A stretch of 18,368 bases of DNA from Candidatus Izemoplasmatales bacterium (GTDB lineage Bacteria > Bacillota_I > Bacilli_A > Izemoplasmatales > Hujiaoplasmataceae): NCBI GenBank assembly GCA_028699855.1, contig JAQVTV010000007.1:1-18368 (forward strand). The letters are read 5' to 3'. The notes below the pieces were generated by a model that saw only the letters and a list, made by a program, of their open reading frames with translations, was not told the DNA's origin and did no database searches. This document shows, piece after piece, positions 4,168-7,342 of this stretch. Position numbers and translations under genes: made by a program. How positions within the stretch are numbered: position 1 is the stretch's first letter; each line of letters opens with the position of its first letter.

Positions 4168-4857
4168 ATGGTTGATATCCATGCGCACATTTTGCCTTTC
4201 GTTGATGATGGATCTTCAAGCCTTGAAGTATCGCTTGAACTGATTCGCGAGGCCATGGACTGTGGCGTTAAAAATCAATTTTTGACACCACACTTCATGA
4301 AAACCCGTAATTTTCTTTCTGTTGCCGAAGAGAACCAGAAAGTCTTTCAGTCGTTCAAAGACACAATCAAACAACGAGGTTGGAATATCAATCTCTATCT
4401 CGGAAATGAAATCTACTATTCCATCGATGTGCTTGAAAGTCTTAGGAAGAAGCATATTCTTCCATTGGGAAATTCGAATAAAGTCCTCATCGAGTTCTCC
4501 CTATCCGAGATGCTTGAGGATATGCCCGAAGCCGTGCATAATATTTCATCGCTCGGATATGTTCCCGTGATTGCTCATGTGGAGCGCTATTCGTATCTCA
4601 ATCGCTTGGATGATATCAAGATACTACGTCGAATGGGCGCAATGATCCAAGTGAATGCTTCATCAATCGTCGGTTTAAACGGAAAAACCCAACAAGCTAA
4701 AGCGATGAAGATGATCAAGTTGAACGATGTGGATTTTGTCGCCTCCGATGTGCATGCATCGCGGATCAACCACATGAAACAAGCCTATGCGATCATCTTG
4801 AAAAAATTCGGTCGTGATATGGCCGAAAAAATCTTCAACAATCAAAGCGTTCTTTAA
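4168..4857 (+). CDS. cpsB: PHP-domain tyrosine-protein phosphatase, CpsB/YwqE-like
   Basis: This 229-residue metal-dependent phosphatase of the PHP family removes phosphate from the CpsD tyrosine cluster and closes the kinase cycle. Metal-binding residues typical of CpsB are present: His5 and His7 in DIHAHILPFVDDG, His42 in TPHFM, Glu81 in GNEIYY, His137 in IAHVERY, and Asp194 and His196 in ASDVHASR. Length is close to the usual 240-250 residues. The gene starts 8 bases after the cpsD stop with only a weak TTAGG overlapping that stop, so reinitiation is likely. It is the last gene of the operon and is followed at once by a terminator. The PHP fold also occurs in histidinol phosphatase and DNA polymerase subunits, but the motif spacing and the kinase neighbour favour CpsB. 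Confidence 0.92.
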   Translation: MVDIHAHILPFVDDGSSSLEVSLELIREAMDCGVKNQFLTPHFMKTRNFLSVAEENQKVFQSFKDTIKQRGWNINLYLGNEIYYSIDVLESLRKKHILPLGNSNKVLIEFSLSEMLEDMPEAVHNISSLGYVPVIAHVERYSYLNRLDDIKILRRMGAMIQVNASSIVGLNGKTQQAKAMKMIKLNDVDFVASDVHASRINHMKQAYAIILKKFGRDMAEKIFNNQSVL

Positions 4858-4864
4858 CCAAATT

Positions 4865-4890
4865 CGCCCTCAAGGGCGTTTTTTCTTTTT
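4865..4890 (+). terminator. Rho-independent terminator of the cpsCDB operon
   Basis: CGCCC (4865-4869) and GGGCG (4874-4878) close on a TCAA loop and are followed by a long T-rich run. It starts 8 bases after the cpsB stop codon. Confidence 0.85.
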
Positions 4891-4923
4891 TATTTATATC
4901 ACAATTTCATCATAGAGAGTGCG

Positions 4924-4929
4924 TATAAT
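4924..4929 (+). promoter_or_regulatory. Consensus -10 box of the response-regulator leader
   Basis: A perfect TATAAT sits 186 bases before the response-regulator start. I find no good -35 element at 16-18 bases upstream (ACAATT at 4901 for a 17-base spacer), so an activator may be needed. Transcription would start near 4936. Confidence 0.5.
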
Positions 4930-4935
4930 CAAACT

Positions 4936-5090
4936 GAAGATTCAAGAAATGCATATTCACTTCTCCCCCTATGATGATATAGCAGACACTTGAGTTTTCC
5001 ACCTGGTGTGGGTTCGCCCGCACCGCCCCGCATGAGACCAGCGTTCGCTGTTTCTATATGATCAAGGCTTGTAAAAGTCTTTTATTTTCT
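4936..5090 (+). promoter_or_regulatory. Candidate structured leader RNA ending in a terminator
   Basis: This is the only large gap in the window (4858-5109) and has no convincing ORF. A GC-rich patch in AT-rich surroundings holds an 8-bp hairpin, GGTGTGGG-TTCG-CCCGCACC (5005-5024, one G-U pair), and a 4-bp hairpin CAGC-GTTC-GCTG (5039-5050). A long-range stem encloses both: CCT, TGAT and ATATAG in 4968-4982 face CTATAT, ATCA and AGG in 5054-5067, with one bulged A (4971) and one G-G mismatch. An alternative pairing, CTGGT (5003-5007) / ACCAG (5037-5041), is also possible. The long stem shares the AAGG at 5064-5067 with a terminator hairpin, so the two folds exclude each other, as in attenuators and riboswitches. 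I could not match it to a known riboswitch class. A separate small RNA (6S-like) is an alternative. Confidence 0.45.
5064..5090 (+). terminator. Terminator-like hairpin just before the response regulator
   Basis: AAGGCTT (5064-5070) pairs with AAGTCTT (5075-5081) around a GTAA loop, with one G-U pair, followed by TTATTTTCT. Only 19 bases remain before the ATG at 5110, too few for another promoter, so the downstream genes would depend on read-through. The stem is modest (7 bp), so it may be a conditional terminator. Confidence 0.55.
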
Positions 5091-5109
5091 AAGAAAGTGT
5101 GATGATTAT

Positions 5110-5805
5110 ATGAAGAATACTTATGTTTTAGTTGCGGATGATGAATTTCGTATTCGCAAATTGCTTGGTGATTTTTTGCAAAGAGAAGGCTATAAGGTTT
5201 TGGAGGCCGAGGATGGAGAAGAGACGATCGACCTCATGTTTTCCTCGAAAGTCAAGATTGATCTCGTCATTCTTGATGTCATGATGCCGAAGTATGATGG
5301 GTGGTTTGTACTGGAAAGAATCCGCGAGTTTTCGACTGTTCCCGTGATTATGCTCACAGCAAGAAGCGATGAGAATGATCAACTCAAGGGATTCAAACTC
5401 GGCGCAGACGATTATGTCACCAAACCATTTTCTCCGAGTGTGCTGATGGCGCGAATCAACAAATTGCTCAAGCGTGACAAGGTCGAAGCGAGCGAGGTCG
5501 TATTTGGAGCCATCCGGATGTCTTTGCTTGCCAGAGAAGTTACCATCAACAACGCGAAGGTGGAACTCACCCCGAAGGAATTCGAGTTGCTCAAGTACTT
5601 CATTGATAACAAAGGGATCGCATTATCGCGGGACAAGATTTTGAACTCTGTGTGGAACTATGATTATTTTGGTGATTTGAGAACGGTTGACACTCATATC
5701 AAACAACTTCGAGCCAAGTTGGGAGATTATGCTTACTATATTTCTACAGTCAGGAGTATTGGCTATCGTCTAGACATCGAAAATGAGAGCATCGATCAAA
5801 AGTAG
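5110..5805 (+). CDS. OmpR/PhoB-family response regulator
   Basis: This 231-residue DNA-binding regulator pairs with the histidine kinase encoded next. The receiver domain (about 4-118) has the acidic pair Asp10-Asp11, the phosphoacceptor Asp56 in ILDVMMP, Thr83 in MLTARSD and Lys105 in DDYVTKPFSP. A winged-helix effector domain (about 127-226) carries LTPKEFELLKYF, the recognition-helix region RTVDTHIKQLRAKLG and a closing IRSIGYRL-like hairpin (VRSIGYRL). Target genes cannot be read from the sequence. Neighbouring cpsCDB and capD genes make envelope glycans a reasonable guess (inference). An SD-like GTGTGAT (5097-5103) precedes the ATG. Expression probably depends on the leader and conditional terminator immediately upstream. 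Confidence 0.93.
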   Translation: MKNTYVLVADDEFRIRKLLGDFLQREGYKVLEAEDGEETIDLMFSSKVKIDLVILDVMMPKYDGWFVLERIREFSTVPVIMLTARSDENDQLKGFKLGADDYVTKPFSPSVLMARINKLLKRDKVEASEVVFGAIRMSLLAREVTINNAKVELTPKEFELLKYFIDNKGIALSRDKILNSVWNYDYFGDLRTVDTHIKQLRAKLGDYAYYISTVRSIGYRLDIENESIDQK

Positions 5806-7342
5806 GCTTTTCCTTATCACCTATGCCATCATATTGGCCTTCATCGTCGGACTCATCGTTCTCAACAACACATATCTAGAACGCTATTATATCCGTTACC
5901 GCCAGCAAACACTGTTGGCGGCTTTTGACGATGTTCAAATGGTGAATCTGACGCAGGTCAATACATCCGAACAGATGTTTGAGATCGAGCAAGAATATAA
6001 TATCAACATCCATATATTCAAAGCGCGCATCGTCCCGGATAATCCGTTCAATGAAACTATCGGTGATTTGCCACGACCGTTTATTCGTTTGTACGGAAGC
6101 GAGTTTTCGATGCATGATGGTGCCATCAGCCGCATCATGCTTGAGTTCAATGAACAGATGGGCGGAGATACGAGTGCATTGGTCAACCCTGTCCCGATGG
6201 AAGATGAGAGCTACATCGCCTATTTTATGGGCGCAGGACCCCAAGAGGTGATACCCGGAAGCGATACACAGATGTTAAGCTTTTGCGTGGCAACCGAAGA
6301 ATCTGACGGGTTATTGCTATATTATGTGCTTACGGTTACATTCCAATCGATGCGCGACGCAATAGGGGTTTTCAATACATTTACCATTTTGGTCGGATTC
6401 ATCTTCATGATCATATCTGGGCTTGTGATGTATCTGATCAGTTACAAGTTCACGAACCCGATTTTAGAAATCAATAAGGTTGCACAGAATATTGCCAACT
6501 TGCGTTTCGATGAACGCGTCAACATCAATGCGAAAGATGAGATTGGAGATCTCGGAAACAGTATCAATATGATGAGCCATCAGCTTGAAGATGCCATCAA
6601 TGAGTTGAAGCGAGCAAATGAGCAATTGTCCCAAGACATCGAGCTGAAAGATAAGATCGATGCCATGCGGAAAGAGTTTATTGCGAATGCGTCCCACGAA
6701 TTGAAAACGCCCTTATCATTGATCATGGGATATAGTGAAGCACTGAAATTGCCCGGACTCGACCCAAACACGACCGAGGAATATGTCAATATTATTCTGG
6801 ACGAAACGAACAAGATGAACAAATTGGTGATGGGTTTATTGAAAATTTCACAACTTGAAGGCGGTTTCACTGAATCTCAATTATCGATTTTTTCCATAGT
6901 GGATTTGATTGAAGAGACTTTGCGATTGTTTTCGATTGTATTTGATGAGAACAAAATACACCTCGAAACGAGTCTTTTGGATATAGAGGTTGAGTCGGAT
7001 TATGACCAATTACAGACAGTTCTCACTAATTTCATTGCAAACGCATTGCATCATGTCGATGAACATCGCAACGTGAAAGTTTATGTGGAACAATTGTCCG
7101 AAATGGATATTCGCGTGGTCGTTTATAATAGTGGCATATCGCTACCTGAGGCGGAATTCGAGCGTATTTGGGAGAGCTTCTATAAGGTCGATAAAGCGCG
7201 CACGCGAAGTTATGGAGGACAAGGACTTGGACTCAGCATTGCCAAAACGACCTTGATCAACTTGGGACATGCATACGGTGTTCGGAACGTTTCGGGGGGC
7301 GTTGAGTTTTATTTTGATATTAAAACAATAGTCCCGAAATAA
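5783..7342 (+). CDS. Sensor histidine kinase (HAMP-HisKA-HATPase)
   Basis: This 519-residue membrane kinase overlaps the response regulator by 23 bases in another frame, which implies coupled translation; no strong SD site is seen. Order of parts: transmembrane helix 1 (about 8-28), an extracytoplasmic sensor region of about 165 residues with no recognised fold, transmembrane helix 2 (about 195-219), HAMP (about 221-273), a short coiled stretch, and HisKA with phospho-acceptor His305 in ANASHELKTPLS. The ATPase domain has an N box (TNFIANALHHV, Asn416 and Asn420), a divergent G1 box (YNSGISLPEAE in place of DxGxG), an F region (FERIWESFYKVDKAR) and a G2 box (GGQGLGLSI, 478-486). The NSG-type G1 box is common in VanS/BaeS-like kinases. 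The signal sensed is unknown. Confidence 0.92.
   Translation: MRASIKSRLFLITYAIILAFIVGLIVLNNTYLERYYIRYRQQTLLAAFDDVQMVNLTQVNTSEQMFEIEQEYNINIHIFKARIVPDNPFNETIGDLPRPFIRLYGSEFSMHDGAISRIMLEFNEQMGGDTSALVNPVPMEDESYIAYFMGAGPQEVIPGSDTQMLSFCVATEESDGLLLYYVLTVTFQSMRDAIGVFNTFTILVGFIFMIISGLVMYLISYKFTNPILEINKVAQNIANLRFDERVNINAKDEIGDLGNSINMMSHQLEDAINELKRANEQLSQDIELKDKIDAMRKEFIANASHELKTPLSLIMGYSEALKLPGLDPNTTEEYVNIILDETNKMNKLVMGLLKISQLEGGFTESQLSIFSIVDLIEETLRLFSIVFDENKIHLETSLLDIEVESDYDQLQTVLTNFIANALHHVDEHRNVKVYVEQLSEMDIRVVVYNSGISLPEAEFERIWESFYKVDKARTRSYGGQGLGLSIAKTTLINLGHAYGVRNVSGGVEFYFDIKTIVPK

Follow-up and report, generated by a model that had tools for sequence, protein, structure and literature searches.

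We found that the response regulator/histidine kinase operon of a Candidatus Izemoplasmatales genome is preceded by a structured RNA leader, which is conserved in the family and begins with a hairpin predicted to expose a C-rich loop. Our best reading, which we hold tentatively, is that the leader of this Izemoplasmatales two-component operon, which would be autoregulated, encodes a C-loop RNA and perhaps also serves as an attenuator. The window analyzed is an 18,368-nt stretch of contig JAQVTV010000007.1, and its source genome comprises 1.34 Mb in 242 contigs (68.5% complete). The leader is located between the gene for a CpsB-type phosphatase (4168-4857) and the response regulator (RR) and histidine kinase (HK) pair (5110-7342). 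The named relatives of the window's RR were from Candidatus Izemoplasmatales and related Tenericutes/Bacilli MAGs.

The locus was found to be a polysaccharide locus with the gene order Wzz, BY-kinase, CpsB, leader, RR, HK, CapD across the 29 family loci compared, within the sequence extent of each locus: L071, L084, L087, L114, and L035 stop within or soon after HK, and L072 and L035 begin only after Wzz. In this comparison CpsB was not found in the six g6 loci, nor CapD in L074, where about 950 bases past HK were covered. The f2 loci L088-L090 contain RR and HK but none of the polysaccharide neighbours, and they have no such leader; none was seen in L102, which is cut within RR. Elsewhere in the window, two adjoining genes (855-1700 and 1701-2615) look to us, from their sequence, like tandem UppP-type undecaprenyl-diphosphatases, and the product of an ORF at 337-765 is presumably similar to desulfoferrodoxin/superoxide reductase.

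Table 1 Features of the leader and the two-component operon, in positions of the window.
Feature	Position	Strand	Basis
Terminator-like hairpin and T-run, 3' of cpsB and 5' of the leader promoter	4865..4878	+	Consensus terminator scan
Probable RR box (putative binding), a TCACA-N6-TCATA direct repeat with an 11-bp period spanning the -35 region	4899..4914	+	
-10 box TATAAT	4924..4929	+	Read in the sequence
P1, 5'-terminal hairpin	4936..4999	+	Outer helix 4936-4946/4989-4999; arm covariation
Conserved exposed core ACUUCUCCCCCUAU, C-tract 4965-4969	4959..4972	+	Exact in 7/15 long leaders
P2, GC-rich hairpin	5005..5024	+	Halves covary: z -7.7, 0/5000, n=15
P3, small hairpin	5039..5050	+	Part of the window's MFE fold
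Hairpin P4 (5064-5081) with the U-rich tract after it, perhaps a weak terminator/attenuator	5064..5088	+	
Response regulator (RR), OmpR/PhoB type	5110..5805	+	Response_reg and Trans_reg_C domains
Histidine kinase (HK)	5783..7342	+	HAMP, HisKA, HATPase_c domains

The TATAAT that the first-pass annotation had placed upstream of the leader is present and belongs to a conserved promoter. The pattern TCACA-N7-CATA-N9-TATAAT, with at most one mismatch, was found at the RR promoter in 25 out of 34 family genomes, and the distance from the box to TATAAT was fixed at 9 nt in the matched relatives. In total the 34 genomes contain 86 matches to this pattern, compared with 5 for the pattern read backwards. 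The consensus scan of the window called no sigma-70 promoter on the + strand near the leader, which makes an activator likely at the RR promoter. The 11-bp repeat resembles OmpR/PhoB-type sites. From the sequence, the RR probably binds the direct repeat over the -35 region, which would make the operon autoregulated, and the other 61 promoter-box matches may include a wider regulon. Another exact match to the RR-promoter box is located near 510-540 in L523, upstream of an ORF whose product we assume to be a serine hydrolase, and a similar box is found in G031. The box was not matched at RR in g11, and transcripts of the RR genes in this genus may come from upstream or from a different promoter. 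In the g11 loci L081, L082, L085, and L087, upstream of 2501, the leader hairpin is located directly at the cpsB stop codon.

The comparison of leaders covered 30 from the family, each from a different genome: the window, L035, L062-L087, L091, and L114. A C-loop hairpin at the start of the RNA, a few nucleotides past the -10 box, was found in 25 of them. These can be grouped into 15 long leaders (g1-g4, g7, g8, and g10) and ten short ones (g6 and g9), the latter reduced to a single C-loop hairpin of about 45-60 nt with a U-run. Both the frequency of the hairpin and its survival alone, with a U-run, in the short leaders argue for a C-loop RNA. The absence of the C-loop from the remaining five leaders argues against it: L068 (G023) keeps only the last hairpin, and the four g11 leaders keep a hairpin and a U-rich tract before the Shine-Dalgarno sequence (SD). 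A fifth g11 genome, G020, likewise has the hairpin without the C-loop.

The 5'-terminal hairpin, P1, starts about 7 nt past the -10 box, at the predicted 5' end of the RNA. MAFFT alignments (A2, A5, and A8) misaligned the P1 arms between genera, and we therefore used duplex-energy permutation instead of column covariation. Among the 15 long leaders, the arms of P1 pair better with each other than with the arms of other genomes (z -6.8, 0/5000 permutations). The result was the same, 0/5000, when one leader per genus was used (n=7), and 222/5000 was obtained for the four g1 leaders alone, for which RNAalifold found only one pair changed on both sides. The own partner ranked 0 to 2 among the 15, except in G009, where it ranked 7. 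The arms covary while the loop core stays, being exact in about half of the long leaders (Table 1), which speaks for a C-loop RNA. The predicted mean probability of being unpaired was 0.93 for the C-tract and 0.34 for the remaining C of these leaders (n=25), which also speaks for this reading. The MFE fold encloses the C-tract in a helix in 24 out of 25 C-loop leaders, the exception being G009 (L035). An exposed C-rich motif in a hairpin loop or single strand is one of the criteria for C-rich-loop (UCCC) sRNAs, and such a motif was found in the folding predictions for the 25 leaders.

We searched for known RNA classes and for further copies of the element. Rfam covariance models run against 4880-5130 gave no match (best sR24, E 0.23), and there were no gathering-level hits in 20 relative loci, with 6S RNA, T-box, and EAR included; only chance-level matches were obtained. 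The first-pass annotation had been unable to match the leader to several riboswitch consensus elements or to T-box. The pattern CTYYTCCCCCTAT was found once each in 12 of the 34 genomes, eight times as the RR leader. Of the other four matches, L127 is the opposite strand of the SD of a presumably HAAS/DUF1700-like gene, L133 lies inside an ORF, and L128 and L136, which were read and folded, showed no P1-like hairpin. A covariance model, R1, built from four g1 sequences, was run on the 34 genomes. E-values were 4e-14 or lower for the four g1 leaders and between 0.04 and 0.6 for six leaders from other genera. Beyond g1 the model is of limited sensitivity, with several known leaders going undetected, and its best hit outside leaders has E 0.075. 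Of its non-leader hits we read 11: ten had no C-loop hairpin, and in the eleventh, L490, the C-tract is the reverse strand of a lipoprotein gene SD (L307). The hairpin pattern ATTCNATAT...ATATTGAAT was matched in 17 of 90 genomes covering the order, and the matches with at least four C in a row were all RR leaders. Combining R1 (34 genomes) and the pattern (90 genomes), a convincing C-loop hairpin was found only as the RR leader, one per genome. This looks like a gene-specific leader rather than a dispersed riboswitch class. The confinement of the C-tract matches to RR leaders, together with the retained promoter box, favours the C-loop RNA.

If this reading is correct, the RR probably binds the direct repeat and thereby starts the RNA, the first ~64 nt of which would be P1, whose loop would keep the CU-rich core accessible. 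Like the C-rich-loop small RNAs, this core would most likely base-pair with a G-rich RNA. It could act from a short leader RNA, released where the U-tract hairpin ends transcription before the SD, or while still attached to the mRNA, and the U-tract hairpin would set the amount of RR-HK mRNA.

Small RNAs of this kind are known from other bacteria, and these analogues lend the reading some support. LhrC of Listeria monocytogenes has been described as acting through UCCC loops, under the control of the two-component system LisRK (PMC4132741). It shares with the leader the CU-rich UCCC motifs in hairpin loops, the two-component control, and a low-GC Gram-positive relative as host; in contrast, it is encoded by stand-alone genes in five copies and has proven targets (PMC4132741), whereas the window RNA is a single copy inside the leader of the two-component operon itself, with a partner that is only putative. 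In GsrN of Caulobacter, the 5' C-rich loop is described as the most conserved part, and homologues are usually found near core stress regulators (PMC5869019). The conserved 5' C-rich loop and the location near regulators are similar, but GsrN, which we liken by description, is an alphaproteobacterial sRNA under a sigma factor with a proven target, katG (PMC5869019). RsaE, RNAIII, and SprD of S. aureus and FsrA of B. subtilis are listed as using a UCCC motif against Shine-Dalgarno regions (PMC4132741); these are separate RNAs with proven targets, while the window leader has no Rfam match. As a claim of membership, the likeness to C-rich-loop RNAs under stress regulators such as LhrC and GsrN would be at most an analogy. 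Among the titles and abstracts found by searching open-licence papers, none describes this element, and no paper on Izemoplasma small RNAs was found in that open-licence literature.

Two further kinds of leader have a similar setting. Terminator-attenuated operon leaders have a hairpin and a U-rich tract between the promoter and the first gene. Their layout is alike, but no conserved anti-terminator fold was found in the window leader and its terminator is weak. Polysaccharide operons are also the setting of EAR (eps-associated RNA) and of LoaP-type antitermination; the window leader is likewise an RNA element in a polysaccharide locus but matches none of the Rfam models, that of EAR included.

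We looked for a pairing partner of the loop core. Pairing in cis with the operon's own SD was rejected, as the two showed no covariation (z -0.32, 1857/5000, n=25). The sequence TAGGGGGA, an SD complementary to the core, precedes an ATG in 34/34 family genomes. Lipoproteins were enriched downstream of it, with 15 of 83 ORFs compared with 16 of 382 background genes from 400 kb of three genomes (20-kb stretches L315-L334; two-sided Fisher p 5e-5). However, this enrichment is not specific, because the control SD TAGGAGGA is just as rich: 13/76 for TAGGGGGA compared with 10/65 in the same genomes (one-sided p 0.48), where the 76 exclude nine hand-picked g9 regions, the source of two of the 15 lipoproteins. 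An LhrC-like lipoprotein regulon was therefore rejected. Further TAGGGGGA loci gave lipoproteins in 0/5 ORFs in g9 and 0/10 in g6. Compared with genomes lacking the C-loop (g11 1/31, f2/f3 1/21), the difference was 13/76 to 2/52 (p 0.018), to which we give little weight, as it is uncorrected for the base lipoprotein rates of g11 and f2/f3. Within the first 60 residues, membrane or signal segments were found in 40/76 ORFs behind TAGGGGGA and 22/65 behind TAGGAGGA (one-sided p 0.019). In the comparisons with TAGGAGGA the genus mix is unmatched, since the 40 control regions fetched by place come from g1 and G009 only. ORFs shorter than 50 aa had been removed from all these counts. Genes behind strong SDs were in general richer in lipoproteins than average genes (TAGGAGGA and background counts above).

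The core and its candidate targets also showed no sign of co-evolution: the core of a genome fits the sites of that genome no better than the cores of other genomes do (difference -0.08, s.e. 0.18 kcal/mol, 68 sites). As a possible single target we considered a gene which we take to be HAAS/DUF1700-like. Among its 24 readable rows, seven, from four genera, have TAGGGGGA as the SD, which is antisense to the leader core (three further rows could not be anchored). In these loci (L127, L170, L172, L176, L188, L190, and L191) it is located behind a presumably PadR-like gene. The same SD was found in 0/3 g6 rows, though g6 has the C-loop. Taken together, these sequence-based pairing tests would neither show nor exclude a role in trans. 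The negative results for cis core-SD pairing, the lipoprotein regulon, and co-evolution count against the C-loop RNA.

These results bear on a purely cis-acting leader, which is a serious possibility: the 5' stem-loop may protect the RR-HK mRNA or bind an RNA-binding protein at the C-loop, with the U-tract hairpin as an attenuator. The position of P1 at the predicted 5' end and the failure of the SD-class and co-evolution tests to find a trans target are in keeping with this, as is the g11 leader, which keeps its hairpin and U-rich tract before the SD without a C-loop. On the other hand, a pyrimidine-flanked C-tract is kept in 25/30 leaders, which exceeds the needs of a stabilizing hairpin.

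The U-tract hairpin is located just before the SD and is formed by P4 in 13/15 long leaders (34-nt windows) and by P1 itself in the ten short ones. In the window, the hairpin and following TTATTTTCT that the first-pass annotation took for a terminator are present, and 19 nt separate 5090 from the RR ATG at 5110, as had been stated. The strength of the terminator is another matter. P4 in the window is weak (-6.0 kcal/mol), shows no stability gain over shuffles in context (z -1.11), and goes unreported by the consensus terminator scan, whose single call is the hairpin upstream of the promoter; the halves of P4 do not covary among the 15 long leaders (z 0.09, 2655/5000). Compared with shuffles, the stretch before the SD gave z -5.4 to -7.1 in six g6 leaders, -3.2 to -4.8 in four g11 leaders, and -2.8 to +1.1 in four g9 leaders, where the 61-nt window cuts into P1; among long leaders, z was below -2 in only 2/15. 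Because of the weakness of P4, its lack of covariation, and the result of the scan, termination is plausible but unproven, and intrinsic termination at P4 would be a plausible but weak prediction from the sequence. The weak terminator also weighs against the C-loop RNA reading.

The same hairpin could act mainly as an insulator, stopping or lowering transcription that runs on from the polysaccharide genes upstream, with a minor role for the C-loop. We consider this unlikely. It would suit g11, where the cpsB stop codon is immediately followed by the hairpin, with no conserved promoter between them. In the window, however, the separate terminator-like hairpin already precedes the promoter, and P1, in all 25 leaders with a C-loop, comes after the RR promoter and has a conserved loop.

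The first-pass annotation had read the leader as a possible riboswitch or attenuator built on a three-way junction. Its view that the operon is preceded by a structured RNA was borne out: the 155-nt stretch folds to -44.6 kcal/mol, compared with a shuffle mean of -31.1 kcal/mol (z -4.05, 0/200 shuffles as stable). The UUCG-capped hairpin it described is P2, and its 4-bp hairpin is P3; both are present, the former with covarying halves. The junction itself did not hold up. The proposed 13-bp long-range stem (4968-4982/5054-5067) is missing from the MFE fold of the window and pairs no better within than between genomes, either among the 15 long leaders (z -1.37, 435/5000) or within the four g1 genomes (z -0.65, 1722/5000). 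It would also cross P1, which is the enclosing helix supported here and had been absent from the annotation. This stem, the alternative fold examined, is not conserved and gives no support to a mutually exclusive anti-terminator. The annotation had suggested the long junction strands as a binding site; conservation centres instead on a C-loop hairpin at the 5' end. A metabolite riboswitch is therefore very improbable despite the stable fold, since support is confined to P1, its loop, and P2. An aptamer of this kind is not expected before one operon only, shrinking to a single hairpin in g6/g9, losing its C-loop in g11, and lacking an Rfam match. Of the original proposal, the conserved multi-helix aptamer falls and an attenuator perhaps stands. 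That the fold arose by chance and has no function is scarcely credible: P4 is not above shuffles in most long leaders, but P1 and P2 covary, at 0/5000 each. A leader-peptide attenuator, in which the ribosome would sense a small ORF across the C-tract, was rejected as having next to no probability, because the 14-codon ORF present in the window is not conserved (8/15 long leaders have an ORF there, with differing sequences, and 7/15 none) and the C-tract length differs by single bases.

The leader adds a covariation-supported RNA without an Rfam match to a little-known lineage. Its first cultured member was described in 2021, and the lineage has been proposed to lack a cell wall and to stand between Firmicutes and Mollicutes (PMC8397711). 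Action of the C-loop in cis would imply a partner able to recognize a C-rich loop located at the mRNA 5' end. Action in trans would mean that a signalling operon carries a small RNA of its own within the leader. It is possible, though we regard it as doubtful, that upon kinase activation the RR drives, from one promoter, both its own increased synthesis and that of a C-loop RNA acting on G-rich translation starts. In that case, a terminator immediately upstream of the start codon would determine the ratio of signalling proteins to RNA regulator.
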